DNA of 64,000 nucleotides, taken from positions 1 through 64,000 of the forward strand of contig NZ_JAGOLP010000007.1 in assembly GCF_017994015.1 (NCBI RefSeq). The letters are read 5' to 3'. The notes below the pieces were generated by a model. That model searched no databases. It had not been told where the DNA came from and was given only the letters and a program-made list of their open reading frames with translations. The stretch is from Ferrovibrio sp. (GTDB taxonomy: Bacteria; Pseudomonadota; Alphaproteobacteria; Ferrovibrionales; Ferrovibrionaceae). The translations under genes and the position numbers were made by a program. Below are positions 20,455-54,464 of this stretch, in pieces. Each line of letters opens with the position of its first letter. The stretch's first letter is position 1.

Positions 20455-20511
20455 GATGCCGGCTCCCCCTGGAATGTCAGAACAACACTCCACTATAAGC
20501 CGAGCATCATT

Positions 20512-21000
20512 TCAAGTTATCGCATAAAGGAAGTAGCGATCCGGCGGAATATCGACAGGTGCCTGCAAGGGCTGCAACCGGGCATGCGCCAGACGCTGGT
20601 CTGACAGCACAATGCCGCCGGGCCGGCCCAGGCCGGGCAGCAGGTCTGAAAGCCAGGCGGCCTGGCGTGCATTGGCCGCCGCATCGCCCGAGCCGGTATC
20701 GCAATGGATCAGCGCCGCCACCGCGCCCTGGCTGGCAGCAAAGGCCGGCAGGGTGGCGGCGAATTCGCCCAGCACCAGGAAAGGCGCCGCCGGCTTGGAT
20801 AACGGATGCGCGTTATCGGCCCGATCAAAGGCATAAATCTCGCGGCCGGGCAGTTTTTCGCGCAAATGATCAAAAGTGCGGCCATTGCCCAGGCCCACTT
20901 CCAGCACCGGGCCGGGTATGGCGGCGATGGCGCCAGCGGCCCAATCGAGCACAGCGCGCTGCGCCGTCACGCGGCGAATAAAACTATCAAGACGGCTCAT
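20512..21000 (-). CDS. Small class I SAM-dependent methyltransferase
   Basis: A 162-residue protein with the SAM-binding motif VLEVGLGNGRTFDHL (about residues 32-46), an acidic motif-II residue in IYAFDRADN and a motif-IV-like ALIHCDTGSGD. Only the Rossmann core is present, with little room for a substrate domain. The substrate cannot be predicted. It lies 9 bases after the cyclic-nucleotide-binding gene. Confidence 0.75.
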   Translation of the reverse strand: MSRLDSFIRRVTAQRAVLDWAAGAIAAIPGPVLEVGLGNGRTFDHLREKLPGREIYAFDRADNAHPLSKPAAPFLVLGEFAATLPAFAASQGAVAALIHCDTGSGDAAANARQAAWLSDLLPGLGRPGGIVLSDQRLAHARLQPLQAPVDIPPDRYFLYAIT

Positions 21001-21009
21001 GCTGCCAGC

Positions 21010-21456
21010 CTATTTCGCCCGCGCGGCGCGCAGATCGGCAGTGGTGCGCTCCAGGCGCTGCGCCAGCACGCGCATGATCTCGATGGCAATCTGCGGAAAA
21101 TCGTTGATCAGGCGGAAAAACAAATCCTTGGCGATGCGCAGGGTGATCAATTCGCTCACGGCGGTGACGGTGGCGGTGCGCGGCACATCGCACAGGATGG
21201 CGATCTCGCCAACAAAATCATGCTGCTTCAATCGCGCCACACTGAGCGGCCCGCCCGGTGTGTTGACGGTGACATCGGCCTCGCCGCCGAAGATGACATA
21301 GGCGGCATCGCCCGGGTCGCCCTGGTGAAACAGCACATCGCCCGGCTTGTAGATGATGCGCTGGCTGGTGAAGGCCAGCAGCTTCAGCTTCGCCGGCTCG
21401 ATCTTGGCAAAGAGCGGAATACGCCGCAGCGCTTCAACTTCCTCGTTCAGACTCAT
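21010..21456 (-). CDS. Cyclic nucleotide-binding domain protein
   Basis: A 148-residue protein consisting almost wholly of a CNB domain: the beta roll YKPGDVLFHQGDPGDAAYVIFGG and the phosphate-binding cassette FVGEIAILCDVPRTATVTA, with the conserved Glu and Arg that hold a cyclic nucleotide. There is no helix-turn-helix, so it is not a Crp-type regulator. The ATG at 21456 (MSLNEEVEALRRIPLF) is chosen because the upstream extension would overlap the ABC gene. It is sandwiched between the degenerate ABC protein and the methyltransferase and may sense cAMP/cGMP for that system. Confidence 0.85.
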   Translation of the reverse strand: MSLNEEVEALRRIPLFAKIEPAKLKLLAFTSQRIIYKPGDVLFHQGDPGDAAYVIFGGEADVTVNTPGGPLSVARLKQHDFVGEIAILCDVPRTATVTAVSELITLRIAKDLFFRLINDFPQIAIEIMRVLAQRLERTTADLRAARAK

Positions 21457-21487
21457 GACACTCAGCCCCCTCGTTTCAAGCTGCGGC

Positions 21488-24139
21488 TCAACCGGCCAGC
21501 ATCTGCTTGAAGCCCGTATTATGTTCGGCCAGTTCGGCAAAACGGCCCTGCGCCACCAGCCGGCCCTCTTCCAGCACCAGCACCAGATCAAAGCCTTCGG
21601 CATCGGCGGCGCGTTGCAAAGACCAGACCAGGCCGGCTCCGGCGCGCCGCTCCAGCATGGCGCGCAGCACCGCAGCATGGCTGCGTGGATCGAGCGAAGC
21701 GGTGCTTTCAGAGAGCATGATCCAATCCGGATTCTTGAGCAAGGCGCGGGCTATCGCCAGTTTCTGGCGCTGCGCAGCGCCGAGCCGGGCGCCGGCAATG
21801 CCAACTTCGAACAGGAAACCCACTTCGATGATCGGCTCGCGCAGGCCGCATTGTGCGATCACATCGGCCATCACGCGGCCGATCTTCTCCTGCGCCTGGG
21901 CCTGACCATAGGCCACGCGGCCAAACAGGATGTTGTCGACGATGCTGGCCGAGGCGGTGAATTGCTCGGGATCAAAGAAGGCGATGGCAGCGCGGCGCTC
22001 GGCCGGCAGGGTATCGGCAAAAATCTTGCGGGCGCGCAGAATGGCGGCGCGCTCGGCTTCGTCGAAATGCCCCAGGCGATGCCGCGCCAGGATCAGCTTG
22101 AACGGCAGCGCCATCAGCCGCGCCCTGTCGGCCTCGGCCACCTGGTTCAGCATGTCGGGCCGCACGCGGGCGATCAGTTCCTTGTATTCCGGCAGGTCAT
22201 CCGACGAGATGAAACTGAATTGCTGGAAGAATTCATGATCCGGCGGCAGGTCGGCGAACAATTCCACCATGGTGGAGGCCACTTCATGGCCGATCTGCAA
22301 GAAGCGCTCGCGCAGGCCAACGGCATCCAGCACCTGCATCATATGCGGATCGCGCGCCATGGTGTCGACATTGTAGGCGCCGTCGCGGGCGGTGCCGAAG
22401 ATCAGGTTTTCCGCCACCGTGGCATTGCTGTTGTAGCGTTCCGGGTCCCAGCCTTCGACCAGATCGGCGATATCGCCATCGGCCAGCCGCGAGCGGAAGG
22501 CCCTGCGTGCTTCCAGCACCTGCTCGGCCAGCGCGGCCTGGCGCTTTGGATCAATCGTGCCGCGCATGCCATATTGATACACATCCTCATCGAAGGCGGC
22601 GACATGCAAGGCGGCAATGGCCTGCTTGGTCAATTCCTCCGGACTGGCAGCACCGGCACGGCTGAAATTGGTCCAGTCGGCATCAATATCGTGCAGGATA
22701 TTGCCCGAGGCGCGCAATTCCACCATCTCGCGCTCATATTGGCGCTTGTGGCGCTCGTCGCGCTGCTTCGGCCGCACCGGCCGCTGGCGCAGGCCCAGCA
22801 GCAGATTGTCGCCCAAAGTGGCATTGAAGATGTGCGATGCGGCGCCAACATAGGCCAATTGCCGCCCGGTGACGGTTTCCGGCAGGTCGGCCAGAACATG
22901 GCCGTTGATCGTGATCTTGCCGCGGCTCGGCTCCTGCAAACGCGCCAGCACTTGCAGCAAGTCTTCGCGCCCGGCGCCGCCCAGCACCGCCACGCGGGCC
23001 GGCCAGGGCAGCGTCAGGCTGATACCGTCCAGCACCGCAACACCCTGATCGTCCTGCATCGACACGGCGTTGAGCGTTATTGGCCCGGTCAGGGCCACCG
23101 GCTCGGCCGGCTCGCTCAGCAGATCGTCAATCGGCCGCATGCCGGGCGGCTCGAACTGCGTCACCACCTGCTCGTATTTCTGCTTCACATCCTCGCGGGT
23201 CTGGTAATGGTTGAGCAATTCCTTCCACGGCGCCGCCATTTCCTTATGCGCGTTCACCGCCGCAATCACGGTGCCTACATCCATCTGGCCCTTGATGACG
23301 AAATAGCCGCCGATGGCATAGAAGAAGAACGGCCCGAGCTGCTGGATGAAATTATTGACGAATTTAATGACAAATTTACGCTGAAAAATCTCCACCCGTA
23401 TCCAGTAGCTCACCCCCAGCCGCTTGGCGAAATCGGCCAGCATGCGGTTGGAATTGTCATGCGTATGCACTTCCAGCACGCCGGTCACGGTCTCGCCGAT
23501 GCGATCTGACAGTTTGCGCTGGTTCTTGATCCGCTCCTTGCCCAGCGCGCGCACATGGCGCTGCAATTTCGGCACGATGTAGAACTGGATCGGATACAGC
23601 GCCACGGCGGCCAGCGCCATCACCGGATTCTGGATCATCAAGAATCCGAAAATCACCAGCAGCATGCCGCCCTGGAAAATCGGCAGCGCAAAACTTTCGC
23701 CGATGAAGCCGCCCACCGGCTCCACTTCGGCGATGATCATCGGGATGATTTCGCCCTGGCTGGTCTTGCGGAAGGTGGGCAGCGGAAAGCGCAGCACCTG
23801 CGCGTATAAATCATAGCGCAGGCGGCGCAGCATACGCTCGCCGGCAATGCCCTGAAATACGTTGATAACGTATTTGAAGCCCTGCTGGATCACCACCAGC
23901 ACCAGGAAACCGAAGCACAGCACCAGCAGATATTGCACCGCATCAAGCTGCAGCCAGCCGAGGCCGAACAGATCAAGCGGATACTGCACGCCCTTGCCGG
24001 CAATGCCCTCGTTGATAATCGTCTTGGGCATCGACAGGTAATAATAATACGGGATGAATGAGGCAATCGAGAGCAGGGTGATGATGACCTGCTGCTTCAG
24101 GCTATGCCTGATAATGAATTTGTAGAGGTTCTTTTCCAC
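21488..24139 (-). CDS. ABC-type membrane protein with degenerate, segment-triplicated nucleotide-binding domain
   Basis: An 883-residue protein. Residues 1 to about 320 form an ABC exporter transmembrane domain with several hydrophobic helices. From about 350 an ABC-like NBD follows, but the key motifs are lost. The Walker A position reads LGGAGREDLL (386-395) with no GK[ST]. The signature position reads ARLGAAQRQK. The Walker B aspartate is replaced in WIMLSESTASLD. The switch histidine is missing in VWSLQRAAD. An insert of about 290 residues repeats the segment after the Q loop: ATLGDNLLLG (440), ATVAENLIFG (573) and ASIVDNILFG (731). Normal fused exporters have about 580-600 residues. It starts a minus-strand operon divergent from the glycosyltransferase operon. 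Confidence 0.8.
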   Translation of the reverse strand: MEKNLYKFIIRHSLKQQVIITLLSIASFIPYYYYLSMPKTIINEGIAGKGVQYPLDLFGLGWLQLDAVQYLLVLCFGFLVLVVIQQGFKYVINVFQGIAGERMLRRLRYDLYAQVLRFPLPTFRKTSQGEIIPMIIAEVEPVGGFIGESFALPIFQGGMLLVIFGFLMIQNPVMALAAVALYPIQFYIVPKLQRHVRALGKERIKNQRKLSDRIGETVTGVLEVHTHDNSNRMLADFAKRLGVSYWIRVEIFQRKFVIKFVNNFIQQLGPFFFYAIGGYFVIKGQMDVGTVIAAVNAHKEMAAPWKELLNHYQTREDVKQKYEQVVTQFEPPGMRPIDDLLSEPAEPVALTGPITLNAVSMQDDQGVAVLDGISLTLPWPARVAVLGGAGREDLLQVLARLQEPSRGKITINGHVLADLPETVTGRQLAYVGAASHIFNATLGDNLLLGLRQRPVRPKQRDERHKRQYEREMVELRASGNILHDIDADWTNFSRAGAASPEELTKQAIAALHVAAFDEDVYQYGMRGTIDPKRQAALAEQVLEARRAFRSRLADGDIADLVEGWDPERYNSNATVAENLIFGTARDGAYNVDTMARDPHMMQVLDAVGLRERFLQIGHEVASTMVELFADLPPDHEFFQQFSFISSDDLPEYKELIARVRPDMLNQVAEADRARLMALPFKLILARHRLGHFDEAERAAILRARKIFADTLPAERRAAIAFFDPEQFTASASIVDNILFGRVAYGQAQAQEKIGRVMADVIAQCGLREPIIEVGFLFEVGIAGARLGAAQRQKLAIARALLKNPDWIMLSESTASLDPRSHAAVLRAMLERRAGAGLVWSLQRAADAEGFDLVLVLEEGRLVAQGRFAELAEHNTGFKQMLAG

Positions 24140-24329: not shown

Positions 24330-25574
24330 ATGGTGTCGCGCAGCGACGGTACGCGTGTGCTGATCTACAGCCACGACACGTTCGGCCTCGGCCATTTGCG
24401 CCGTTGCCGCACGATTGCGCATGCCCTGGTGGAGAGCAACCCGGACATGTCGGTGTTGATTCTCTCCGGTTCACCGATCATCGGCAGTTTCGACTTCCGC
24501 TCACGGGTGGATTTTGTGCGCATTCCTGGCGTCATCAAGTTGCGTGACGGCCAGTATAATTCACTCAACCTGCCGATCCATATCGAAGAGACGTTGAAGC
24601 TGCGCGCGGAGATCATCCAGCATACCGCGCGGATTTTTGATCCGGATATCTTCATTGTCGACAAGGAGCCGCTTGGCCTGCGCGGCGAAGTGGCCGATAC
24701 GCTGCGTATGTTGAAGGCGCGCGGCACCAAGCTGGTGCTCGGCCTGCGCGATGTGATGGACGAGCCGAAGGCGCTGGAGCCGGAATGGCGCCGCAAGAAT
24801 GTGATGCCGGCCTTGCGTAATCTCTACGACCAGATCTGGGTTTATGGCCTGCCGCAATTCTGCGATCCGCTGGAAGGCATCGACCTGCCTGACAAGGTGG
24901 CGCGCAAGATCGTTTATACCGGCTATCTGCCGCGCAGTTCATCGGAACCGCCCAGCGAGCATCAATTGCCGGAAATCACCCAGCGCCCCTTCCTGCTGGT
25001 CACACCCGGCGGCGGCGGCGATGGCGAAGGCCTGATCGAATGGGTGTTGCGCGCCTATGAAAGCAGCGAGATCGTGCCCTATCCGGCTTTGCTGGTGCTG
25101 GGGCCGTTCATGCAGCGCGAACGGCGCAGCGAATTCCTCGCTCGCGTCGCCAAGCTGCCGCGCATAGAGGCCATCACCTTCGATGCCCATATGGAGCATC
25201 TGGTGCAGAATGCCGTGGGCGTGGTGGCCATGGGCGGCTACAACACCTTCTGCGAAATCCTGTCGCTGAACAAACGCGCCATCATCGTGCCGCGCAAGAA
25301 GCCGCGCATGGAACAGTATATCCGCGCCGCCCGGGCGCAGGAGCTGGGCTTGGTGCGCATGCTGGAAGACGACGAAAGTTATGATGCCGCCGTCATGGCG
25401 GCTGCCCTGCGCGCCCTGCCGCGCCAGCGCCTGCCTTCGGAAGTGGTGATCCCCGGCCTGCTGGAGGGCTTGGAGAATGTCAACCGCCTGGTGCAGCCAT
25501 GGCTGCGCCCGGTGCCGCGCGATGCCGAGGCCGGCCAGGACGATGCCAATCGGGTGGTTGAGTTCCGCGCGTGA
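24330..25574 (+). CDS. Predicted GT-B glycosyltransferase (COG4671/MurG-like), copy 1
   Basis: A 414-residue protein with the GT-B layout of MurG-like enzymes. The N-terminal loop YSHDTFGLGHLRRC is typical of this predicted glycosyltransferase group. The C-terminal donor-binding domain is seen in VTPGGGGDGEGL and MGGYNTFCEILSLNKRAIIVPR followed by MEQYIRAARAQELG. No membrane helix is present. It opens the plus-strand operon, and its TGA overlaps the GTG start of the next gene. A second, diverged relative is the fifth gene of the operon. The sugar and acceptor are unknown. Confidence 0.82.
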   Translation: MVSRSDGTRVLIYSHDTFGLGHLRRCRTIAHALVESNPDMSVLILSGSPIIGSFDFRSRVDFVRIPGVIKLRDGQYNSLNLPIHIEETLKLRAEIIQHTARIFDPDIFIVDKEPLGLRGEVADTLRMLKARGTKLVLGLRDVMDEPKALEPEWRRKNVMPALRNLYDQIWVYGLPQFCDPLEGIDLPDKVARKIVYTGYLPRSSSEPPSEHQLPEITQRPFLLVTPGGGGDGEGLIEWVLRAYESSEIVPYPALLVLGPFMQRERRSEFLARVAKLPRIEAITFDAHMEHLVQNAVGVVAMGGYNTFCEILSLNKRAIIVPRKKPRMEQYIRAARAQELGLVRMLEDDESYDAAVMAAALRALPRQRLPSEVVIPGLLEGLENVNRLVQPWLRPVPRDAEAGQDDANRVVEFRA

Positions 25575-26824
25575 CCGCTGTGCCCGTGGCTTTTGTGCTG
25601 AAGGGCTATCCGCGCCTTTCAGAGACCTTCATCGCCCAGGAAATTGCCGCACTGGAAGCGCTGGGGCTGGATATCCTGATCGTTTCGCTGCGCCATCCCA
25701 CCGACAAGAAGCGCCATGCGCTGAACGACCGGATCAAGGCGCCGCTGCTCTATCTGCCGGAATATCTCTACCAGGAACCTTTGCGCGTGTTGCGCGGCTG
25801 GTGGCATGCCCGGCGCCTGCCCGGCTATGGCGCGACGCTGCGGCTGTGGTGGCGCGACCTGCTGCGTGATCCCTCGCCCAATCGCGGCCGCCGGCTCGGC
25901 CAGGCGCTGGTGCTGGCCGCTGAATTGCCGCCACGCTATCGCCATATCCACGCGCATTTTGTGCATACGCCGGGTTCGGTGGCGCGCTATGCAGCACATC
26001 TGCTTGGGCTGCCCTGGACCGCCTCGGCCCATGCCCGCGACCTGTGGACCACGCCGGCCTGGGAGAAGCAGGAGAAGTTCGCCGATTGCCAATGGGCGGT
26101 AACCTGCAACGCGCATAACATCACGCATCTGCGCAGCATCCATGCCGCCGCCAAGGTCAGCCTGGTGTATCACGGCATCGACACCAGCCGCTTTCCACCG
26201 CCGCCTGAGCGGATTGAACAGGCCAATAATGACGGCAGCCGGGCCGAAACGCCGCTGCATCTGGTATCGGTGGGCCGCGCCGTGGCCAAGAAGGGCTACG
26301 ACACGCTGCTGGATGCGCTGGCCTTGCTGCCGCCCGGGCTGCATTGGCGGCTGGAGCATATCGGCGGCGGGCCTTTGCTGCCGCAACTCAGGCAGCAAGC
26401 CGAGAAACTGGGCCTCGCCGAACGGATCACCTGGCGCGGCGCCCAGGCTCAGGATGCGGTGATTGCGGCCTATCGCGCCGCCGACCTGTTTGTGCTGGCC
26501 AGCCGGCAGGACCAGGATGGCGATATGGATGGCCTGCCGAATGTGCTGATGGAAGCCCAGAGCCAGGGCCTGGCCTGCCTGGCCACCCATATCTCCGCCA
26601 TCCCGGAATTGATCGAGCCGGAACGCACCGGCCTGCTGGTGCCGCCGGAAGACCCCGCCGCCCTGGCCGCTGCCCTGCGCCGCCTGATCGAGCAGCCGGC
26701 CTTGCGCCAGGCTTTGGGCGCGGCCGGTGCCGAGCGGGTGCGCAGCCAGTTCAGCATGCAGGCCGGCATCGCCGAACTGGCGCGCCGCTTCGGCCTGCCT
26801 GATCCGGGTGCGGCACCATGCTGA
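25571..26824 (+). CDS. Glycosyltransferase family 4 protein, copy 1
   Basis: A 417-residue GT-B enzyme. The N terminus has FVLKGYPRLSETFIAQEIAAL, common in exopolysaccharide GT4 enzymes. The acceptor domain includes HAHFVHTPGS and the C-terminal donor domain has LVSVGRAVAKKGYDTLLDAL and the sugar-nucleotide site GLPNVLMEAQSQGLACLAT. It starts with GTG, four-base overlapped with the gene before. It probably adds a hexose to a cell-surface glycan. Confidence 0.88.
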   Translation: MTAVPVAFVLKGYPRLSETFIAQEIAALEALGLDILIVSLRHPTDKKRHALNDRIKAPLLYLPEYLYQEPLRVLRGWWHARRLPGYGATLRLWWRDLLRDPSPNRGRRLGQALVLAAELPPRYRHIHAHFVHTPGSVARYAAHLLGLPWTASAHARDLWTTPAWEKQEKFADCQWAVTCNAHNITHLRSIHAAAKVSLVYHGIDTSRFPPPPERIEQANNDGSRAETPLHLVSVGRAVAKKGYDTLLDALALLPPGLHWRLEHIGGGPLLPQLRQQAEKLGLAERITWRGAQAQDAVIAAYRAADLFVLASRQDQDGDMDGLPNVLMEAQSQGLACLATHISAIPELIEPERTGLLVPPEDPAALAAALRRLIEQPALRQALGAAGAERVRSQFSMQAGIAELARRFGLPDPGAAPC

Positions 26825-27957
26825 TCGGCTTCTATGCCCCGCTGAAACCACCCGACCATCCGGCGCCATCGGGCGACCGCCGCATGGCGCGACTGCTGAT
26901 CGCCGCCTTGCAGGGCATGGGCCACGAGGTGCAGGTACTGTCTGACCTGCGCGCCTATAACAGCGACGGCGATGCCGCCCGCGAGGCTTCCATTGCGGCG
27001 GCTTCCAGTGCGGAAGTGACGCGGTTGACGCGGCTTTTCGCCGGCCCGCCGGTGGCGGTGCCAGATCTGTTCTTCACCTATCATGTCTACCACAAGGCTG
27101 CCGATTACCTTGGTCCCGTGCTGAAGCAGCGTTTCCAGAAACCCTATGTGATCGCCGAGCCGTCTGTGGCGCCGAAACGCGCTGCTTCGGCCTGGGCCAA
27201 GGGCTATGTGCAGGCGGCCAATGCGATTCGCGCCGCCGACGCGCTGTTCTGCCTGACCAATCTGGACCGCGCCTGTGTGGAAGCCCTGGCCGGGGCTGAC
27301 AAGGTGCATGCCCTGCCGCCTTTCCTGGATGCGGCGCCCTATGCCCGTGTACGGGCGCATCGCGCCGCCTTGCGGCCAAGCTGGGCGCAGCGTTTCCGCC
27401 TACCGCCGGATGAACCCTGGCTGCTCAGTGTCGGCATGATGCGCACAGGCGACAAGCTGGCCTCGTTCCGCGCCCTGGGCGACGTGCTGGGCCGCGCGCT
27501 CGACAAGCCCTGGCGCCTGCTGGTGGTGGGCGATGGCCCGGCCCGCGCCGAGGTGGAGGCGGCCCTGGCGCCGCTGGGTTCGCGCGCCAGCTTTGCCGGC
27601 CTGATGAATGCCGAGGAAATTGCCGGCGCCTATGCGGTGAGTGATCTCTATATCTGGCCTTCGGTGAACGAGGCCTATGGCATGGCGCTGCTGGAAGCCC
27701 AGGCCTGCGGCCTGCCGGTGCTGGCGGCCGATACGCGCGGCGTGCCGGATATTGTGCGCCATGGCGAAACCGGCTGGCTGACGCCGCTGGGCGACTGGGC
27801 CGCGATGGCGGCGGCTTTGGCCGATCTGCTGCAAGCGCCCGGCCGGCTGGAATACATGAGCGAGGCGGCTTTGGCCAATGTGGCTGCCGAACATGACCTA
27901 GCCGCCACGCAGCGCCGCTTTGCCAGGCTGTTTGCAGAATTGGGGCTGCCGGCATGA
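26818..27957 (+). CDS. Glycosyltransferase family 4 protein, copy 2
   Basis: A 379-residue GT-B enzyme. The N terminus IGFYAPLKPPDHPAPSGDRRMARLL is followed by a linker and the GT4 donor domain LLSVGMMRTGDKL ... LVVGDGPARAEVE and the E-x7-E site SVNEAYGMALLEAQACGLPV. It overlaps the preceding gene by seven bases and the next by four, so translation is coupled. Confidence 0.87.
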   Translation: MLIGFYAPLKPPDHPAPSGDRRMARLLIAALQGMGHEVQVLSDLRAYNSDGDAAREASIAAASSAEVTRLTRLFAGPPVAVPDLFFTYHVYHKAADYLGPVLKQRFQKPYVIAEPSVAPKRAASAWAKGYVQAANAIRAADALFCLTNLDRACVEALAGADKVHALPPFLDAAPYARVRAHRAALRPSWAQRFRLPPDEPWLLSVGMMRTGDKLASFRALGDVLGRALDKPWRLLVVGDGPARAEVEAALAPLGSRASFAGLMNAEEIAGAYAVSDLYIWPSVNEAYGMALLEAQACGLPVLAADTRGVPDIVRHGETGWLTPLGDWAAMAAALADLLQAPGRLEYMSEAALANVAAEHDLAATQRRFARLFAELGLPA

Positions 27958-28535
27958 TCCGCCTCGCCCTGCTGCGCCATGGCCGCACCGCCTGGAATCT
28001 GGAAGGCCGCCTACAGGGCCGCGCCGACATCCCGGTGCTGGAAGATGCTTTGGCGACCTTGCGCCAGCGCCGCCTGCCGCTGCCCTATGCTGCCTGGCCC
28101 TGGCTGGCCAGTCCGTTGCTGCGCGCCGGGCAGACCGCCGCCGCCTTGGGCATCCAGGCCAGCCCCGAGCCGGCGCTGATCGAGACCGATTGGGGCGGCT
28201 ATGAAGGCAGGCTGCTGCGCGAGCTGGAAACCGACCCGGCCTTCCGCGCCAACGAGGCTCTGGGCCTGGATTTCCAGCCGCCCGGCGGCGAAAGCCCGCG
28301 CATGGTGCAGCAACGCCTGGCGCCGCTGCTGGCGCGGCTGGCCGCCAGCGGCCAGGATTGCGGCGCCGTGTGCCACAAGGGCGTGATGCGCGCCGTGCTG
28401 GCCTGGGCCTATGACTGGCCGATGCTGGGCAAGCCGCCGGCGAAGCTGGACTGGTCGGCCTTGCAGGTTTTTCATATCGAGGCCGATGGCCGGCCACGCC
28501 CCGGCCAGATCAACATTGCGCTGGAAGCCGCATGA
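27954..28535 (+). CDS. Histidine phosphatase family protein
   Basis: A 193-residue phosphatase/mutase-fold enzyme. The catalytic RHG motif is LLRHGRTAWN (His9), the substrate phosphate arginine lies in ASPLLRAGQTA, and the second catalytic histidine is in AVCHKGVMRA. The family includes phosphoglycerate mutases and sugar-phosphate or lipid-phosphate phosphatases. Its place inside a glycosyltransferase operon, with ATGA overlaps at both ends, suggests dephosphorylation of a sugar or carrier intermediate. That is inference. Confidence 0.88.
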   Translation: MIRLALLRHGRTAWNLEGRLQGRADIPVLEDALATLRQRRLPLPYAAWPWLASPLLRAGQTAAALGIQASPEPALIETDWGGYEGRLLRELETDPAFRANEALGLDFQPPGGESPRMVQQRLAPLLARLAASGQDCGAVCHKGVMRAVLAWAYDWPMLGKPPAKLDWSALQVFHIEADGRPRPGQINIALEAA

Positions 28536-29698
28536 CGAAGCCCAACAGCCCGCTGCCCCGCATTCTTATTTATGTGCAGCATCTGCTGGGCGTGGGCCAC
28601 CTGCACCGCATCGCCGCCATCGCCCGCGCCCTGGCCAAGCAGGATTTTGCCGTGCTGCTGGTTTCCGGCGGCTATCCCGATCCCACCCTGGGGCGGCTGG
28701 ACGGTATCCGCTTTGCGCAACTGCCGCCGGCCCGCGCCGCCGATGCCAGTTTCCGCATCGTGCTGGATGAAGCCGGCCAGCAAGTGGATGAAGCCTGGTG
28801 GGACAAACGCCGCGCCGCGCTGTTCAGCCTGTTTGACGATTGGCGCCCGGCCATCGTGATCACTGAACTGTTTCCCTATGCGCGGCGGCCGATGCGGCAT
28901 GAATTGCTGCCCTGGCTGGCGCATATCCGTTCAAGCCAGCCGCGCCCGCTGGTGCTGAGTTCGGTGCGCGACATCCTGGTGGACCGCACCAAGCCGGAGC
29001 GCGACCTGGATGTGCTGAACTGGCTGGACAGCTATTACGACGGCACGCTGGTGCATGGCGATCCGGCTTTCATCCCGTTTGAGCAAACCTTTCCGCTGGC
29101 GCATCGTATCAGCACGCCACTGCATTACACCGGCTATATTGTCGAGCACGAGGATTTGCTGCCAACCAGCGCCGGGCGCGACGAAGTGCTGGTCTCGGCC
29201 GGCGGCGGCGCCGTGGGCATGCCGTTATTCAATGCCGCCATCGCCGCCCGGCCGCTGAGCCAGGCTGCCGGGCTGACCTGGCGCCTGCTGGTTAGCCGCA
29301 ACGAAAGTGATGCCGATGTGGCCGCGCTGCGGGCGGAGGCTGCCGGTCAGCCGGGGGTGATCGTGGATTGGGCACGGCCGGATTTCCCCGGCATGCTGCG
29401 GCAATGCCGGCTCTCGATCAGCAAGGCCGGCTACAACACCGTGATGGAAACCCTGGCAGCCCGCGCCCGCGCCGTGGTGGTGCCGTTTTCCGGCGGCGAC
29501 GAAACCGAGCAGGCGCTGCGCGCCGATTTGCTGGCACAGCGCGGCGCGGTGCAGGCTTTGCGCGAGAGCGATCTCAGCCCGGCCAATCTGGCCCAGGCGG
29601 TGGACCGCGCCCTGGCGCTGCCGCTGCCGGAAAAGCCGGTGCTGGACCTGAATGGCGCCGCCAATACCGCCGCCTTGCTGCGCCGTCTGCTGCCATGA
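28532..29698 (+). CDS. Predicted GT-B glycosyltransferase (COG4671/MurG-like), copy 2
   Basis: A 388-residue relative of the first gene in this operon. The N terminus IYVQHLLGVGHLHRIAAIA and VSGGYP fit COG4671-type predicted glycosyltransferases. The donor domain is seen in VLVSAGGGAVGMPLF, SKAGYNTVMETLAARARAVVVPF and the following ETEQALRADLL. It shares the GHLxR loop and the GYNT motif with copy 1 but is otherwise diverged. The start overlaps the phosphatase stop (ATGA). Confidence 0.82.
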   Translation: MTKPNSPLPRILIYVQHLLGVGHLHRIAAIARALAKQDFAVLLVSGGYPDPTLGRLDGIRFAQLPPARAADASFRIVLDEAGQQVDEAWWDKRRAALFSLFDDWRPAIVITELFPYARRPMRHELLPWLAHIRSSQPRPLVLSSVRDILVDRTKPERDLDVLNWLDSYYDGTLVHGDPAFIPFEQTFPLAHRISTPLHYTGYIVEHEDLLPTSAGRDEVLVSAGGGAVGMPLFNAAIAARPLSQAAGLTWRLLVSRNESDADVAALRAEAAGQPGVIVDWARPDFPGMLRQCRLSISKAGYNTVMETLAARARAVVVPFSGGDETEQALRADLLAQRGAVQALRESDLSPANLAQAVDRALALPLPEKPVLDLNGAANTAALLRRLLP

Positions 29699-29711
29699 GC
29701 AACCTCCTATC

Positions 29712-30506
29712 ATGAGCAGCTGGCAGGAACTGGATGCTGAACTGGATGCCTGGAGCCAGGCCGGCCGCCGGGCTTTGTTCTGGTGGCGCGATGATGACGC
29801 CACGGCGCCCAGCCCGGCCCTGGAACGCCTGCTGACCTTGCAGGCCGCAAGCAATGCACCGCTGGCCCTGGCGGTGATTCCGGCTGCCGCCGAGCCGGCA
29901 TTGGCGCGGCGGCTGGAAGACCTGGCCGCGATTGCTGTGCTGCAACATGGCCATGCCCATGCCAATCATGCCCCGGCAGGCGAGAAAAAAAGCGAATTCC
30001 CCGCCAGCCGGCCGGTGACGGACAGCCTGGCCGATCTGCGCCAGGGCCGCAGCCGCATGCAGGCGCTGTTTGGCCGGCGCCTGCGCCCGGTCCTGGTGCC
30101 GCCCTGGAACCGCATTGCGGCAGGCTTGCTGCCCCATCTGCCGCGCCTCGGGTTGCATGGAGTTTCAGGCTTCAAAAGCCGCGATGATGCCTGGGCCGCG
30201 CCCGGGCTGATGCAGGTGAACACCCATCTCGACCCGGCCGATTGGCGCCGGGATGCCGCCTTTATTGGCGAAACCGCCTGCCTGGCGGCTGCCATTACGC
30301 ATCTGCGGCTGATGCGCGATGTGGCGGAACCGGAAGCCTTGGGCCTGCTGACCCATCATGCCCGCCATGATGGTGCGACCTGGGCTTTCATCGCCCGTTT
30401 CCTGCATCATGTGGCGGGCCATTCTGGCACCCTGTGGGTGGATGTGGATGCTGCTTTCGGCGCCGGGCCGCCGCAATCGGCAACCAGCCCGCGCGCATCG
30501 TCATGA
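29712..30506 (+). CDS. NodB-like polysaccharide deacetylase-family protein
   Basis: A 264-residue protein with the NodB-fold start FWWRDDDA (the metal/base aspartate region) and a candidate zinc pair in LQHGHAHANHA. Further on PVLVPPWNRIAAGLLPHL matches the family's motif 3 (PxxWxR/N). There is no signal peptide, so it would act in the cytoplasm. It may remove an acetyl group from a sugar in the glycan made by the neighbouring transferases. Start at the ATG 29712; a longer frame overlaps the previous gene and looks spurious. Confidence 0.75.
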   Translation: MSSWQELDAELDAWSQAGRRALFWWRDDDATAPSPALERLLTLQAASNAPLALAVIPAAAEPALARRLEDLAAIAVLQHGHAHANHAPAGEKKSEFPASRPVTDSLADLRQGRSRMQALFGRRLRPVLVPPWNRIAAGLLPHLPRLGLHGVSGFKSRDDAWAAPGLMQVNTHLDPADWRRDAAFIGETACLAAAITHLRLMRDVAEPEALGLLTHHARHDGATWAFIARFLHHVAGHSGTLWVDVDAAFGAGPPQSATSPRASS

Positions 30507-30513
30507 AGCGGTC

Positions 30514-31020
30514 ATGACCCGGCTGTATTACCCGCTCTCCCGGTTGTGGCCCGATCATCTGCGTGCCGGGCTTGGCTTGGTCTTTTGCGTCGCTCTGATG
30601 TTGTTTAACGCACCGGTATCTGTCATCTTTTTTGTCCTTGCCGGTGTAAGCCTGCTGCTGGCTTGGCTGTGCGTTCACACCTTGTGGCGCCAGCAGACCG
30701 AATTCGCCCTGGATGGCGATGCTGTGCAGCAGATCAGCCGCTGGGGCTGGGCGAAGCCGAAACGCATCGCCTGGGGGGAACTACGCAGTGTGAAGCTGCG
30801 CTATTTTTCCACCCGGCGCGATGGCAGTGCCGGCTGGATGACAGTGACGATCAGGGGCCACGGGGGAAAAGTGCGCGCCGATAGTGATCTAGAAGGTTTT
30901 GAGCCGCTCGTATTGCGGGCGTTGAACGAGGCGATGCGCCAGGGCCTGACCCTGGATCCCGCCACGGAAATAAATGCGCGCCTGTTGCAGCAGGGCTTGA
31001 ACCGGAATGGCCTGCTATGA
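30514..31020 (+). CDS. Small membrane protein with PH-like domain
   Basis: A 168-residue protein with two hydrophobic helices near the N terminus (about residues 17-34 and 36-56). A soluble domain with beta-rich character follows: FALDGDAVQQISRWGWAKPK, RIAWGELRSVKLRYFSTRR and GWMTVTIRGHGGKV. This layout resembles bacterial PH-domain membrane proteins. Function unknown. It links the glycan genes to the ABC importer: seven bases after the deacetylase-like gene and an ATGA overlap with the ATPase gene. Confidence 0.65.
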   Translation: MTRLYYPLSRLWPDHLRAGLGLVFCVALMLFNAPVSVIFFVLAGVSLLLAWLCVHTLWRQQTEFALDGDAVQQISRWGWAKPKRIAWGELRSVKLRYFSTRRDGSAGWMTVTIRGHGGKVRADSDLEGFEPLVLRALNEAMRQGLTLDPATEINARLLQQGLNRNGLL

Positions 31021-32924
31021 GTGATACTGCCGTCAGCATGAACGCGAATGTCATTGATGTCCGCGACCTGAAAGTGCATTTCAAGGTTGCCGAAGGTCTG
31101 ATCCGCGCGGTGGATGGCGTCAGCTTCCGCGTGCCACAGGGCAAGACCGTGTCGCTGGTGGGCGAATCCGGCTCGGGCAAATCGGTGGTGAGCCAGGCCA
31201 TCATGGGCATCCTGCCGCGCGCCGCGCATATCGCCGGCGGCGAAGTCCTTTTCCATGATGCCGCCAATGGCGGCAAGATCACCGATATCGCCAAGCTGCC
31301 ACGCGGCGGGCCGGAAATGCGCCAGCTTCAGGGCGGCCGCATCTCGATCATCTTCCAGGAGCCGATGACCTCGCTCAGTCCGCTCCACACCATCGGCAAC
31401 CAGATCACCGAGGCGCTGCGTCTGCATCGCAAATCCAGCCAGGCCGAGGCCGACGAACTTTCCACCGACATGCTGCGCCTGGTGGGCTTTCCCGATCCGG
31501 CGCGGGCGATGAACACCTATGCCTTCGAGCTTTCCGGCGGCCTGCGCCAGCGCGCCATGATTGCCATGGCGCTGGTCTGCCGCCCGGCCCTGCTGATCGC
31601 CGACGAGCCGACCACGGCGCTGGACGTGACTATCCAGGCGCAGATTCTGAAACTGATCAAGGATCTGCAGGCCGAGCTGGGCATGGCCGTGCTGATGATC
31701 ACGCATGACCTCGGCGTGGTGGCCAACATGGCCGACGAGATCGTGGTGATGTACCACGGCAAGGTGATGGAGCGCGGCTCGCTGGATGATATTTTCCGCA
31801 AGCCCGAGCATCCCTATCTCAAGGCATTGCTCAACGCCGTGCCGCGTTTTGACATGAAGCCGGGCGAGCGGCTGGTGCCGATCCGCGAGATCAAGGCCGA
31901 AGTGGGCGGCCTGCTCAAGCGCCGCGCCGCCATGCAGACCGAATGCGGCGAAACCCTGCTGGAAGTGAGCCATCTCACCAAGCGTTTCACGATCCGCAAA
32001 AGCGGCTTCTTCTCGCCCAGGGCCACGGCTTCGGCGCTGGCAGTGGATGATGTCAGCTTCACCGTGCAACGCGGCGAATGCCTGGGCCTGGTGGGCGAAA
32101 GCGGCTGCGGCAAAACCACCACCAGCAAAATGATCATGCGCGCCGTGTCGCCCGACGAAGGCGATATCCGCTTCCATGATGGCGGCGAGGCGGTGGATGT
32201 GCTGAAGCTGGATGGCCAGGCTTTGTTTGATTATCGCCGCAAGGTGCAGTTCATTTTCCAGGACCCGTTCTCGTCGCTCAATCCGCGCATGACGGTGTTT
32301 GACATCGTTTCCGAACCGCTGGTGATCCACAATATCGGCGACGAGGCCGAGCGTTTCCAGCGGGTGAAGGAATTGATGACCCTGGTGGGGCTGGATGTGC
32401 GCCATCTGCGGCGCTATCCGCACAGCTTCTCCGGCGGCCAGCGCCAGCGTATCGGCATCGCCCGCGCCCTGGCGCTGCAACCCGACCTGCTGATCTGCGA
32501 CGAGCCGGTTTCGGCGCTTGATGTGTCGATCCAGGCCCAGGTGCTGAACCTGCTGAAGGATTTGAAGCAGGAACTGAACCTGACCTACCTGTTCATCTCG
32601 CATAACCTGGCGGTGGTGGATTACATCGCCGACCGCATTGCCGTGATGTGCGCCGGCCGGCTGGTGGAACTGGCGCCGCGCGAAGCGCTGTTCAAGCAGC
32701 CGGTGCATCCCTACACCAAGGCGCTGCTTTCCGCCGTGCCGAAGCCGGACCCGAATGCGCGCCTCGATCTTAAGCTGCTGATGGAAGGCAAGGCGTCGAA
32801 CCCGGCGCTGTGGCCCGCTCCCTTCACCATCGATGGCACCACCCGCCCTGCGCTGATTGATCTTGGCGACGGGCATTTTGTTCGGGCTGCGGCTTCGGCC
32901 GATGCCCGGGAGCTTGTGGCATGA
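31017..32924 (+). CDS. Peptide-type ABC importer, fused double ATPase
   Basis: A 635-residue protein with two complete nucleotide-binding domains in tandem, as in YejF/GsiA. Domain 1 has [16 protein letters not shown] and [12 protein letters not shown]. Domain 2 has [17 protein letters not shown] and [12 protein letters not shown]. Each is followed by the oligopeptide-type C-terminal motif ([24 protein letters not shown]). It powers the import of peptides or similar solutes through the two permeases downstream. Start overlap ATGA with the small membrane protein; stop overlap ATGA with the binding protein. Confidence 0.95.
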
Positions 32925-34813
32925 TCCGTTCGCTATTTGCTGCTGCCCTGCTCGCCGCTGCCCTGCCCCTGGGCAATGTGCAGGCCGCCTACAAGGAAAC
33001 CCTGTCGCTGGCCGCCGATGTGGCGGCAGGCAAATTACCCAAGATTGAGCACAGGCTGCCGGAAAATCCGCTGGTGGTGAAATTCAGCGGCGCCAACAAG
33101 GCCGGCCAGCAGGGCGGCGAGATGCGCACCCTGATCGGCCGCGCCCGCGAAGTGCGGCTGCTCAACACCATCAGCTACAACCGGCTGGTGGTGTATAACG
33201 AGAAATACGAATTTGTGCCCGACTTGGCCGAAAGCTTCGAGGTGGAGGATGAGCGCGTCTTCACCTTCCGGCTGCGCAAGGGCCATAAATGGTCGGATGG
33301 CACGCCGTTCACGACCGAGGATTTCCGCTATTTCTGGGAAGACCTGGCCAATAATCCGGAAATCAGCCCCTCCGGCCCGCCGGTCGATTTGCTGGTGGAC
33401 GGCGAGAAGCCGGTGGTGGAATTTCCCGATGCGCAAACCGTGCGCTATAGCTGGAAGCAGCGTAATCCGAAATTCCTGCCGCGCATCGCCGGCACCAGCG
33501 CCTTCTACCTGTATCGCCCGTCGCATTACCTGAAGCAGTTCCACGCAAAATATGCCGATCCGTCGAATCTGGCGCGGCTGGCGGCGGCGGAGAAGCGCGC
33601 CAACTGGGCCGCGCTGCATAACAAGATCGACAACATGGTGGAGAACGACAATCCCGATCTGCCCACCCTGGATGCCTGGATGATGCAGACGCGGCCGCCG
33701 GCAATCCGCTTTGTTGCCGTGCGCAATCCGTATTACCACCGCGTTGATGCCAATGGCGTGCAATTGCCCTACATTGACCGCGTGGTGATGGCGCAGGCCG
33801 ATCCCAAGCTGATCCCGGCCAAGGCCGGCGCCGGCGAGGCCGATATCCAGTTCCGCACCATCGCTTTCTCGAATTTCACCTTCCTGAAGGAAAACGAGAA
33901 GCGCGCCGGCTACAAGACCCTGCTGTGGAAGACCGCCAAGGGTTCGCATTTCACGCTCTATCCAAACCTGAATGCCAACGACAAGGTTTGGCGCGAATTG
34001 CTGCGCGATGTGCGTTTCCGTCGCGCCTTGTCGCATGGCATCGACCGCGAGGCGGTGAACCAGTCACTGTTCTATGGTCTGGCGCAGGAAGCCAACAACA
34101 CGGTCCTGCCGGAAAGCCCACTATTCCGCCCGGCCTATCAAAGCCGCGACACCGAATTTGACCTTGCCAAGGCCAACGCGCTGCTCGACGAACTGGGCCT
34201 GACCAAGCGCGGCAGCGACGGCATCCGCCTGCTGCCCGATGGCCGGCCGATGGAAATCATCATCGAAACCGCCGGCGAGGTTTCGGAACAGATCGACGTG
34301 CTGGAACTGATTGCCGAAAGCTGGGCCAAGCTGGGCATCAAGATGTTTCCCAAGCCGAGCCAGCGCGATGTGCTGCGTAATCGCATCTTTGCCGGCGAAG
34401 CGCTGATGTCGGTATGGTCGGGCTTGGAGAATGGCGTGCCCAATGCCGCCGCCAGCCCGTGGGAACTGGCGCCGACCTCGCAATTCCAGTTGCAATGGCC
34501 CAAATGGGGCCAGTATTTCGAGACCAAGAACAAGAGCGGCGAAGCGCCCGACATGCCCGAGGCGCGGGAATTGCTGCAACTGAACGAGCAATGGAATGAT
34601 GCCGGCGACCTCAACACCCGCGAGCGCATCTGGCACCGCATGCTCACTATTCACATGGAGCAGATGTATACTTTGGGCGTCATCACCGGCGTGTTTCAGC
34701 CCATCGTGATCAACCGCCGCCTGACCAATGTGCCGGCCGAGGGCATCTACAACTGGGACCCGGGCGCGCTGATCGGCATGTACCGGCCTGAAACCTTCTG
34801 GCTCAAGCCGTGA
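32921..34813 (+). CDS. Peptide-type ABC importer, substrate-binding protein (family 5)
   Basis: A 630-residue periplasmic binding protein. Residues 1-22 form a signal peptide ending NVQA. The family 5 core includes VPDLAESFEVEDERVFTFRLR, KWSDGTPFTTEDF and VRFRRALSHGIDREAVNQS. The length matches YejA-like proteins (about 600), which are longer than DppA/OppA. It is encoded between the ATPase and permease genes, so the ligand is delivered to that importer. Confidence 0.93.
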   Translation: MIRSLFAAALLAAALPLGNVQAAYKETLSLAADVAAGKLPKIEHRLPENPLVVKFSGANKAGQQGGEMRTLIGRAREVRLLNTISYNRLVVYNEKYEFVPDLAESFEVEDERVFTFRLRKGHKWSDGTPFTTEDFRYFWEDLANNPEISPSGPPVDLLVDGEKPVVEFPDAQTVRYSWKQRNPKFLPRIAGTSAFYLYRPSHYLKQFHAKYADPSNLARLAAAEKRANWAALHNKIDNMVENDNPDLPTLDAWMMQTRPPAIRFVAVRNPYYHRVDANGVQLPYIDRVVMAQADPKLIPAKAGAGEADIQFRTIAFSNFTFLKENEKRAGYKTLLWKTAKGSHFTLYPNLNANDKVWRELLRDVRFRRALSHGIDREAVNQSLFYGLAQEANNTVLPESPLFRPAYQSRDTEFDLAKANALLDELGLTKRGSDGIRLLPDGRPMEIIIETAGEVSEQIDVLELIAESWAKLGIKMFPKPSQRDVLRNRIFAGEALMSVWSGLENGVPNAAASPWELAPTSQFQLQWPKWGQYFETKNKSGEAPDMPEARELLQLNEQWNDAGDLNTRERIWHRMLTIHMEQMYTLGVITGVFQPIVINRRLTNVPAEGIYNWDPGALIGMYRPETFWLKP

Positions 34814-34823
34814 GCCACGCCCC

Positions 34824-35849
34824 ATGCTGATGTATCTGGCCCGCCGCATCCTGCTGATGATCCCCACCCTGCTGGTGATCAGCCTGCTGGTTTTTGTCAT
34901 CATCAAGCTGCCGCCCGGCGACTTCCTGACCAACCAGATTGCCGAATTGCGCGCCCAGGGCGAAACCTCGGCGCTGGAACGCGCCGAATTCCTGCGCCAG
35001 CAATATGCGCTCGACCGCAGCCTGCTTGAACAATATGCCATCTGGATGGGTTTCATCCCGGGGCCGAACGGCTTTGCCGGCCTGTTGCAAGGCGATTGGG
35101 GCTGGTCATTTGAATATAACCGGCCGGTGGGCGAATTGATCGGCGACCGCCTGCTGATGACGGCGGTGATCAATTTCTTCACCGTGCTGTTTGTTTATAT
35201 CGTGTCATTCCCGATCGGTGTCTATTCCGCCACGCGGCAATATAGCTGGGGTGATTACGGCTTCACGCTGTTTGGTTATCTCGGCCTCGCCACGCCAAAT
35301 TTCCTGCTGGCGCTGGTGATGCTGTATTACTTCAATCTGTGGTTCGGCATGAGCATCGGCGGCCTGGTGGATGAACACCTGATCGATGCGCCGTGGAACT
35401 GGGAGAAGATCAAATCGCTGATGGCGCATATGATCGTGCCGGTGATCGTGATCGGCACATCGGGCACCGCCGCGATGATCCGCCGCCTGCGCGCCAATCT
35501 GCTGGATGAATTGCAGAAACAGTATGTCACCACGGCACGGGCCAAGGGTGTGCCGCCGATGAAGCTGCTGGTGAAATACCCGATCCGCATGGCGCTCAAT
35601 CCGTTCATCGCCGATATCGGCAACCTGCTGCCGCAGATGGTGTCTGGCTCGGTGATCGTTTCGGTGGTGATGAGCCTGCCCACTGCCGGGCCGATGCTGC
35701 TCGGCGCACTGCAATCGCTGGATCAGTATCTGGCTGGTTCGTTCCTGATGTTCCTGGCGCTGCTCACCGTGCTGGGCATGCTGGTTTCCGATATCCTGCT
35801 GGCTTTGCTTGATCCGCGCATCCGGCTCACCGGCGGCAAGGCGAAGTGA
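34824..35849 (+). CDS. Peptide-type ABC importer, permease (DppB/YejB type)
   Basis: A 341-residue inner-membrane permease with about six helices. The N terminus [22 protein letters not shown] is typical of the DppB class. The EAA loop that docks the ATPase is seen in [19 protein letters not shown]. It follows the binding-protein gene by 10 bases. Confidence 0.94.
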
Positions 35850-35850
35850 C

Positions 35851-37035
35851 ATGACCGACACCAGCAACGACACGCGCCTGCAATCCAACAATTTGCAGCA
35901 CTGGGTTTCCAAGGAACCGTTTGATCCCTATTCGGTGGAAAAGCTGTCGCCGGAGCAGGAGCGCTATTTCCAGGCGTCGCAATGGCAGATGATGTGGTGG
36001 AAGTTCAAGCGCCATCGCCTCGGCGTGTGGAGCGGTGTGATCCTGCTGCTGATCTATGCCTCCACGCTGATCTCGGAATTTGTCGCGCCCTATAATGTGC
36101 AGACCCGCAATGCGCGCGCCATCTATGCGCCGCCAAGCGAGATTCATCTGTTCCACGAGGGCGAATTTGTTGGCCCGTTTGTCTATGGCCTGCGCTTCAA
36201 GCTGAATGTCGATACGCTGAAACGTGAATACAGCGAGGATACAAGGCGCGTGCTGCCGCTGCGTTTCTTCTGCCAGGGCGACAGCTATCATTTCTGGGGC
36301 ATGGTGCCGATGAAGTTCCACTTCGTCTGCCCGGCTGAGGAAGGCCATTTCTACCTGTTCGGCACAGATCGATTGGGGCGCGACATCTTTTCCCGCGTTG
36401 TCTATGGCACGCGCATCTCGCTCACCGTGGGCCTGATCGGCATCGCCATCAGTTTCATCATCGGCATCGTGCTGGGCGGCATCTCGGGTTATTACGGCGG
36501 CTGGATCGACAGCATGATCCAGCGGCTGATCGAACTGATCCGAAGTTTGCCGGAATTGCCGCTATGGATGGCGCTATCTGCCGCCCTGCCGGTCACCTGG
36601 TCGCCGATCCTGGTCTATTTCGGCATCACCATCATCCTGGGCCTGCTCGACTGGCCCGGCCTGGCCCGCGCCGTGCGGTCCAAGCTGCTCAGTCTGCGCG
36701 AAGAGGATTTCTGCACCGCCGCCCAGCTTATGGGCGCCAGCCCCAGCCGCATCATCGGGCGCCATCTGATGCCCAGCTTCATGAGCCATCTGATCGCCTC
36801 GGCCACGCTCTCGATCCCGTCGATGATCCTGGGCGAAACCGCGCTGTCATTCCTCGGCCTTGGCCTGCGGCCCCCGATCACTTCCTGGGGTGTGTTGCTC
36901 AACGAAGCGCAGAATATCAACGTGGTGGCGCTCTACCCCTGGCTGATGGCGCCGGCAATCCCGGTTATCGTTGTAGTGCTGGCATTCAATTTCTTCGGCG
37001 ACGGTTTGCGCGACGCAGCCGATCCCTACCGGTAA
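35851..37035 (+). CDS. Peptide-type ABC importer, permease (DppC/YejE type)
   Basis: A 394-residue permease. One N-terminal helix is followed by an unusually long periplasmic loop (about residues 85-185, with [20 protein letters not shown]), then the conserved [21 protein letters not shown] and five helices. The EAA loop is in [22 protein letters not shown]. DppC proteins have about 300 residues, so the N-terminal loop is the main addition. The ATG lies one base after the previous stop codon. It ends the long plus-strand operon. Confidence 0.93.
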
Positions 37036-51335: not shown

Positions 51336-53432
<2,097 letters not shown>

Positions 53433-53612: not shown

Positions 53613-54464
53613 ATGACCACATCCGGCCCCTCCCCCGACCAGCCAGCCGCCGCCGGCGCCGCCCTGCCGCGTAAACTCACCACTATCTTCTGCGCCGACA
53701 TGAAGGGCTATTCCACGCTGGTGGAGGCCGACGAGGTTGGCACCGTGACGCGGCTGAAACGCCATCGCGCCGAGATGACCGCCGAGATCGAGCGGCATCA
53801 TGGCCGCGTGGTGAATACCTGGGGCGATGGCCTGCTGGCCGAATTCTCCTCGCCGGTGGAAGCGGTGTTCGCCGCCGTGGCGGCGCAGCGCCGCAGCGCC
53901 ACGCGCAATGCCGCCGAACATGCCGAAACACCTGGCACGCCGCCGCTGCTGTTCCGCATCGGCATCAATCTCGGCGATGTGATGGTGGATGGCAGCGACC
54001 TCTATGGCGACGGCGTGAATATCGCCGCGCGGCTGGAAAGCCTGGCCGAGCCGGGCGGCATCTGCATTTCCGGCACGGTATTCGAGCAGGTGCGCAAGAA
54101 GCTGGATTTTGGCTTCGATTTTATCGGCCCGCGCGATATCAAGAATATCGCCGAGCCGGTGCCGGCCTATCGCATCCTGCTGGATGGTGCGACGGCGCAG
54201 CAGGCGCAGCCGGTGCCAACCGCATCATCGGCACCGCAGCAGGGCAAGGCCGCGCCCGACGAAGCCGAGCAGATCCGCAAATGGCGCAAAATGGCCTGCC
54301 GTTTCGGCATCCTGGCCGGCTTTCTGCTGATCCTCAATCTGATCACCAGCCCGACCCGGCTGTGGTTTTACTGGCCGGCATTGGGCTTTGGCCTGCTGCT
54401 AGCGATGCGCTATCCGTTTGGTGTGGACCCGCAGCGGCTGTGGCCGCCCTGGCGCCGCGATTAG
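53613..54464 (+). CDS. Class III adenylate/guanylate cyclase with C-terminal membrane anchor
   Basis: A 283-residue protein. The cyclase homology domain spans about residues 20-195: the metal aspartates are Asp29 (FCADMKGYS) and Asp72 (NTWGDGLLAEF), and later blocks are RIGINLGDVMVDGSDLYGDGVNIAARLE and GGICISGTVFEQV. A proline/alanine linker and two hydrophobic helices (about 233-268) anchor it in the membrane at the C terminus, the reverse of many cyclases. The product nucleotide cannot be told from the motifs. A cyclic-nucleotide-binding protein is also encoded in this window. Confidence 0.88.
   Translation: MTTSGPSPDQPAAAGAALPRKLTTIFCADMKGYSTLVEADEVGTVTRLKRHRAEMTAEIERHHGRVVNTWGDGLLAEFSSPVEAVFAAVAAQRRSATRNAAEHAETPGTPPLLFRIGINLGDVMVDGSDLYGDGVNIAARLESLAEPGGICISGTVFEQVRKKLDFGFDFIGPRDIKNIAEPVPAYRILLDGATAQQAQPVPTASSAPQQGKAAPDEAEQIRKWRKMACRFGILAGFLLILNLITSPTRLWFYWPALGFGLLLAMRYPFGVDPQRLWPPWRRD

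Follow-up and report, generated by a model that had tools for sequence, protein, structure and literature searches.

An alphaproteobacterial protein of the ABC-exporter fold with a degenerate, module-bearing nucleotide-binding domain and a conserved cyclic-nucleotide-binding partner

The locus and its degenerate ABC protein

The window, a stretch of 64,000 nucleotides from Ferrovibrio sp., carries a reverse-strand gene for a protein with a transmembrane domain (TMD) followed by a nucleotide-binding domain (NBD). Genes for a cyclic-nucleotide-binding-domain (CNBD) protein and a methyltransferase lie downstream, and the divergent strand carries a glycosyltransferase operon and an ABC importer (Table 1). 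Pfam detects ABC_membrane (PF00664) with 81 bits and then a split ABC_tran (PF00005) with 40 bits, both above cut-off. By fold and descent, the protein belongs to the ABC exporter superfamily and is a type IV ABC-exporter half.

Table 1. Features of the locus, with positions in the window and, where applicable, residues of the ABC protein
Feature	Residues	Positions	Strand	Remarks
SAM methyltransferase (Methyltransf_17)		20512..21000	-	Pfam; frequent third gene
Cyclic-nucleotide-binding-domain protein		21010..21456	-	Pfam cNMP_binding, 3.6e-18; probable start at ATG after ABC stop (mechanical ORF 21010-21678)
ABC-exporter-fold gene with degenerate NBD		21488..24139	-	883 aa, GTG start, stop included; full-length homologues
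Transmembrane domain	1-330	23150..24139	-	Pfam ABC_membrane 69-294, AlphaFold2 helices; most conserved part
Degenerate Walker A, LGGAGRE	385-392	22964..22987	-	replaces GxxGxGK[ST]
Copy 1, ATLGDNLLLG	440-449	22793..22822	-	normal Q-loop/X-loop place
Inserted module, copy 2	535-619	22283..22537	-	ATVAENLIFG at 573-582; hhalign with copy 3, AlphaFold2
Module copy 3	694-776	21812..22060	-	ASIVDNILFG at 731-740; continues into signature region
Degenerate signature, LGAAQ	786-790	21770..21784	-	replaces LSGGQ
Degenerate Walker B, WIMLSE	806-811	21707..21724	-	Ser for Asp
Switch-histidine position, Gln	842	21614..21616	-
GT28-C-like glycosyltransferase		24330..25574	+	first gene of divergent operon
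GT4-type glycosyltransferase		25571..26824	+
GT4-type glycosyltransferase		26818..27957	+
Histidine phosphatase family protein		27954..28535	+
GT28-C-like glycosyltransferase		28532..29698	+
Probable polysaccharide deacetylase		29652..30506	+	no Pfam hit; Mesorhizobium relative annotated so
Oligopeptide-type ABC importer, whole set		31017..37035	+
Importer double ATPase		31017-32924	+
Importer substrate-binding protein		32921-34813	+
Importer permeases		34824-35849 and 35809-37035	+

ABC exporters are ATP-driven pumps. In the window protein, none of the marks of an active ABC ATPase is intact, namely the Walker A motif, the signature, the pair formed by the Walker B Asp and the catalytic Glu, and the switch His; of that pair, the catalytic Glu is still there. 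The aromatic residue of the A-loop is absent, and the P-loop has a 2-residue gap relative to most homologues. We found that each motif claim of the earlier note (no GK[ST] in Walker A, LGAAQ as the signature, Ser in place of the Walker B Asp, and no switch His) holds in the 883-aa open reading frame. The NBD also carries an insert of approximately 300 residues, which the note had put at about 290 and which contains two extra Q-loop/helix modules. A pseudogene or a sequencing error is ruled out by the open, full-length homologues across the class and by a 99% identical copy in UBA7691.

The three repeat copies begin at residues 440, 573 and 731, so that the spacings of about 133 and 158 residues proposed previously are exact. 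We compared the copies with hhalign, using profiles built from 69 homologues. Copies 2 and 3 matched each other with a probability of 98.9% (E 4e-17, 83 columns) and copies 1 and 3 with 93.7%; for copies 1 and 2 the value was 93.4%, over only 22 columns. All seven control pairs taken from elsewhere in the protein scored below 1%, confirming that the segment occurs three times. In a shallow alignment with seven canonical sequences, the copies fell into the Q-loop/X-loop register of canonical NBDs, with probabilities of 96.6% for copy 1, 97.8% for copy 3 and a weak 43% for copy 2. The repeated unit of copies 2 and 3 spans approximately 85 residues and consists of a helix, a strand, a Q-loop-like stretch, ENLLFG and two helices. 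Given the hhalign matches and the shared register, copies 2 and 3 look like duplications of this unit, X-loop included, inside the helical subdomain. The earlier idea that each copy brings helices like those of the NBD helical subdomain holds only in part, as only part of each copy resembles the subdomain.

We ran AlphaFold2 on a 64-row alignment with the ABC chain as a monomer alone, without the CNBD protein. The resulting model (pLDDT 86.7, pTM 0.82) contains many extra helices in the insert. With VIA-align, the NBD of ComA superposed on the model over 238 residues (Z 31.5, rmsd 1.9 A, model range 347-882), and the whole exporters TM287/288, Sav1866 and MsbA aligned over 440-460 residues with Z about 30. 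This superposition indicates a single complete NBD, from which the extra modules loop out between the Q-loop and the signature, and it rules out three separate NBDs. The prospect of three helical subdomains was only partly right. The model has one standard NBD fold, in which the nucleotide site is not intact. Module 2 folded alone reached a pLDDT of 90.7 and had no significant Foldseek match in the PDB. We accordingly rejected it as an NBD-like domain by itself, and this absence of a match is no proof of a new fold.

Distribution and conservation of the family

A scan of GTDB contigs yielded 35 clear homologues. A profile of the insert detected the family in 131 of the 385 alphaproteobacterial genomes sampled, which marks it as old and maintained. 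The same profile matched 31 of 398 in a phylum sample, all of them in Alphaproteobacteria, and no member outside this class was found among the 398. Three Desulfobacterales loci considered as members proved to be ordinary short ABC matches. We found no description of the family in the full-text open-access literature, a scope that makes this weak evidence of absence.

We counted motifs in 69 non-redundant, diverse homologues; none retains four or more of the five catalytic marks and 30 retain none, counts that do not represent independent events, as the family loci are phylogenetically related. The Walker A Ser/Thr is kept in 5/69 and replaced by Asp or Glu in 51/69, and the Walker A Lys position is Lys or Arg in 56/69. 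The Walker B Asp survives in 15/69, the catalytic Glu in 24/69 and the switch His in 13/69, while the two Gly positions of the signature hold Gly in 6/69 and 7/69. An ancestral active form was not found among the 69 homologues, the best of which keep 3 of the 5 marks. One locus (L091) retains SGKS and DE, so that residual ATP binding is possible in some branches. The Asn of the repeats is present in 67/69 for copy 1 and in 69/69 for copy 3 (Asn736), and that of copy 2 (N578) is invariant among the 64 rows of alignment A2. The losses are therefore family-wide and the repeats are kept almost throughout, so the insert is repetitive in the homologues as well. Neither of the two outcomes by which the earlier note would have been refuted, an intact nucleotide site in the model or a non-repetitive insert in homologues, thus arose. 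These results bear out the earlier note's description of a dead NBD and, together with the existence of relatives without any NBD, support its suggestion that the protein is not a pump.

The family also shows an inverted pattern of conservation. Over all 69 homologues, mean pairwise identity is 0.46 in the TMD and 0.34 in the NBD core; among 33 close homologues the values are 0.58 and 0.46, with 0.55 for inserted module 2. In contrast, a canonical exporter of the same genome, measured likewise in 27 orthologues over the class, has 0.55 in the TMD and 0.67 in the NBD. The TMD is thus more conserved than the NBD, the opposite of a true exporter, and the family is maintained. Most of the invariant residues belong to the TMD or to the repeats, those of the TMD including polar and glycine/proline positions within helices. 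The death of the motor and the conservation of the family are both well supported.

Several members depart from the common form. In one branch (L097, L098, L099, L100 and L111), the same insert and dead NBD accompany a very divergent TMD, with no CNBD found nearby; here a different TMD has possibly been joined to the same NBD. One single-contig genome, G154, holds three paralogues with a fused CNBD (L106, L107 and L108). The homologue at G210:C15:619287-620195 (L075) is broken by an in-frame TAG and may be a decaying copy.

The nucleotide-binding partner, the neighbourhood and relatives without an NBD

A CNBD gene lies directly downstream of the ABC gene, or is fused at its C-terminus, in 102 of the 109 loci with enough downstream sequence; at the other seven, no CNBD was found. 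The CNBD is a separate gene in the window and a fusion in lineages such as L091, L104-L109 and L112-L116. This linkage lends support to the word "regulated" in the earlier note. The phosphate-binding cassette of the CNBD is near-invariant, with Arg in 94/95 and Glu in 88/95, and these two residues place the partner in the cNMP-binding domain family. Residues of the ATP site have thus been lost in the family, whereas the nucleotide-sensor site has been kept. The ligand may be cAMP or cGMP, but it may also be no cyclic nucleotide at all, since in the ABC exporter HetC the similar cNMP-type domain takes ppGpp rather than cAMP as its ligand (PMC10986499). Membership in a defence system was considered and rejected: the ABC protein gave only a weak ABC ATPase match, and the TIR-effector matches of the CNBD protein cover its sensor domain only.

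Of 52 loci of at least 7 kb, 35 contain a homologue of the first or second gene of the divergent operon, both glycosyltransferases. The remaining 17 have no glycosyltransferases nearby, and the glycan link is therefore not universal. The combination of dead ABC gene, CNBD gene, glycosyltransferases and importer set recurs on plasmids of Rhizobium, Sinorhizobium and Mesorhizobium, where a nucleotide-sugar dehydrogenase joins the cluster; Azospirillum has the same set with the CNBD fused. The four-gene importer set is present in both the rhizobial and the Azospirillum loci. The rhizobial clusters include adenylate/guanylate cyclase genes in Rhizobium and Mesorhizobium; the Sinorhizobium one has a cyclase homologue. 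The window's own genome has 14 class III cyclase matches, one of them within the window and none adjoining the dead ABC gene. The match in the window (53613-54464, + strand) is an adenylate/guanylate-cyclase-like protein with a C-terminal membrane segment, adjoining an rpoD-like sigma factor (51336-53432). Following the methyltransferase gene is one for a 724-aa FAD/NAD-binding protein with an HpnE/desaturase-like N-terminus (18319-20493, - strand); of the other flanked loci in the comparison, only the near-identical UBA7691 contig has it, and we therefore leave it out of the conserved set.

Plasmid and genome searches revealed relatives that match the TMD and then end. In a tree of 40 dead-NBD proteins, 20 TMD-only proteins and canonical exporters, the canonical exporters stand apart from a single, strongly supported group, which takes in 37 of the 40 and every TMD-only protein. 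Fifteen of the TMD-only proteins cluster together. The other five are nested in the dead-NBD clade; three of them come from plasmids of roseobacters and Defluviicoccus and two from genomes. As this was a quick tree with long canonical branches, it gives only a provisional order of events within the clade. In the fetched stretches, a CNBD match occurs at only one TMD-only locus, about 4 kb off. At one locus from a metagenome-assembled genome (L166, 2197-3276, divergent), the TMD gene is in place beside the glycosyltransferase operon, and both the NBD and the CNBD are absent in all frames. This locus and the TMD-only loci suggest that NBD and CNBD tend to be present or absent as a pair, and that the TMD can dispense with the two of them. 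TMD residues Q17, K89, E101, R108, E138, P153, P190, R208, K255, N263, P270, G277 and G278 are common to NBD-bearing and TMD-only proteins. All NBD-bearing members have F118, beside the first coupling helix, and the TMD-only proteins have lost it.

The TMD-only proteins are varied in size and setting. Those at L128:11773-13077, L132:9719-10981, L133:7770-9032, L164 and L165 are ABC-exporter TMD proteins of about 408-435 aa. On roseobacter plasmids, they lie in copper-oxidase/plastocyanin/cytochrome c clusters and have an extra N-terminal segment of approximately 80 residues. A second group (L130, L168 and L170-L182) comprises open reading frames of about 305-410 aa with no CNBD in reach save one, and its member in Rhizobium phaseoli adjoins CBS-domain and universal-stress-protein genes. 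A further candidate, L167, is cut by a contig end and was left out of the counts.

A possible ATP-independent, signal-controlled membrane protein

These results suggest the conversion of an ATP-driven pump into a membrane protein that works without ATP and under the control of a signal. In the reading we prefer, to which we assign a probability of roughly 0.4, the dead NBD relays a nucleotide signal from the CNBD to the TMD in the service of a surface-glycan pathway. The ABC chain would probably form a homodimer and would no longer use ATP; its NBD, which has given up the catalytic residues and acquired two more Q-loop/helical modules, would have kept its fold and its contacts with the TMD. 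The CNBD partner, or C-terminal CNBD in some lineages, would bind a cyclic or related signalling nucleotide and might dock on the enlarged dead NBD, and the docked CNBD would then set the conformation of the TMD. Without ATP, the TMD could act as a gated passage, a secondary flippase or a membrane platform, and the putative substrate would be a glycan or glycolipid from the adjacent glycosyltransferase operon. As a guess, the conserved positive residues of the TMD would suit an anionic glycan or a lipid-linked intermediate. We extend this reading only tentatively to the whole class: throughout the family, an ATP motor may have become a cyclic-nucleotide-controlled relay in which the module-duplicated dead NBD gates an ATP-independent TMD, with the TMD alone kept where the switch was lost.

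Other readings retain a role for ATP. The protein could still bind ATP without hydrolysing it, as a sensor resembling a degenerate site, with the CNBD as modulator. The complete NBD fold of the model, the basic residue that often occupies the Walker A Lys position and the SGKS and DE of L091 are consistent with such a sensor, yet the acidic residue that replaces Ser/Thr in most homologues should repel phosphate and Mg, and the window protein has a shortened P-loop and no aromatic A-loop residue; we consider this reading unlikely. Slightly less probable is that the protein is the degenerate half of a heterodimeric exporter, driven by an active half encoded elsewhere. Such heterodimers, with one degenerate site, are frequent (review PMC7756269) and likewise lack consensus residues in one NBD, and seven other ABC-exporter-type TMD matches in the window's own genome could supply a partner. 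However, known heterodimers keep one complete site with their partner, whereas here the damage in one half extends to Walker A, Walker B and the signature alike, so that both composite sites would be hit and neither could be complete. Moreover, no partner is encoded nearby (a second exporter TMD occurs in 0/24 family loci of at least 12 kb), and the TMD-only relatives show that this TMD can go without an NBD.

Two further alternatives dispense with ATP, and we regard both as improbable. In one, the protein would be a secondary transporter powered by protons, as in SbmA/BacA, and the dead NBD would act as its brake. SbmA has an ABC-type TMD that became proton driven after NBD loss (PMC13316013), and SbmA/BacA proteins (SLiPTs) resemble the present family in that an ABC-exporter-type TMD works, or is expected to work, without ATP and in that both lineages include NBD-less proteins. 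The TMD-only relatives have lost invariants beside the coupling helix, and the conserved charged TMD residues K89, R208 and R248 are absent from canonical exporters of the same genome. SLiPTs, however, lack an NBD and coupling helices and use a glutamate ladder (PMC13316013), whereas most family members keep the NBD and the coupling region. E101 and E138, two conserved acidic residues, occupy positions that in canonical exporters are likewise mostly acidic, and Pfam assigns the TMD to ABC_membrane (PF00664), listing no SbmA-type family. With its NBD fold, the window protein is not itself a SLiPT; only the TMD-only relatives share the lack of an NBD. In the other alternative, the protein would transport nothing and would serve as a membrane scaffold for organising the adjacent glycosyltransferases, which would fit the glycosyltransferase genes next door in 35/52 loci and the many extra helices of the insert. 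A mere anchor, though, would have no need of a TMD that is the most conserved part of the protein, polar and glycine/proline positions within its helices included.

Among known systems, the family resembles the type IV exporters (MsbA/Sav1866/ComA/TmrAB), with which it shares both folds, the NBD reaching its Z of 31.5 against ComA; it differs from them in its degenerate catalytic motifs, its long insert, its CNBD partner and its pattern of conservation. HetC of Nostoc also combines an ABC exporter with a CNB-type regulatory domain, which lies in the same chain and is required for function (PMC10986499). In HetC, however, the CNB domain is N-terminal and is accompanied by a C39 peptidase and an essential ATPase residue, whereas in the family the CNBD is C-terminal or separate and the ATPase motifs are lost; Pfam gives no C39 peptidase hit in the window protein.

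That ABC exporters can turn into regulated channels or into subunits of channels has a precedent in the ABCC proteins SUR and CFTR. These have ATP-binding NBDs and other regulators, and we saw no specific sequence relation between them and the family. About a third of the sampled Alphaproteobacteria, Sinorhizobium and Rhizobium megaplasmids included, carry a protein that has kept the ABC fold, dropped the motor and would be coupled to a nucleotide sensor. Such a family would offer a natural test of the ATP-free action of an ABC TMD and of the change from motor to switch, with the intermediates (motif loss, module duplication, CNBD fusion and complete NBD loss) all present in living genomes. 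In databases, the genes of the family are labelled "ABC transporter ATP-binding protein", a label that is probably wrong.
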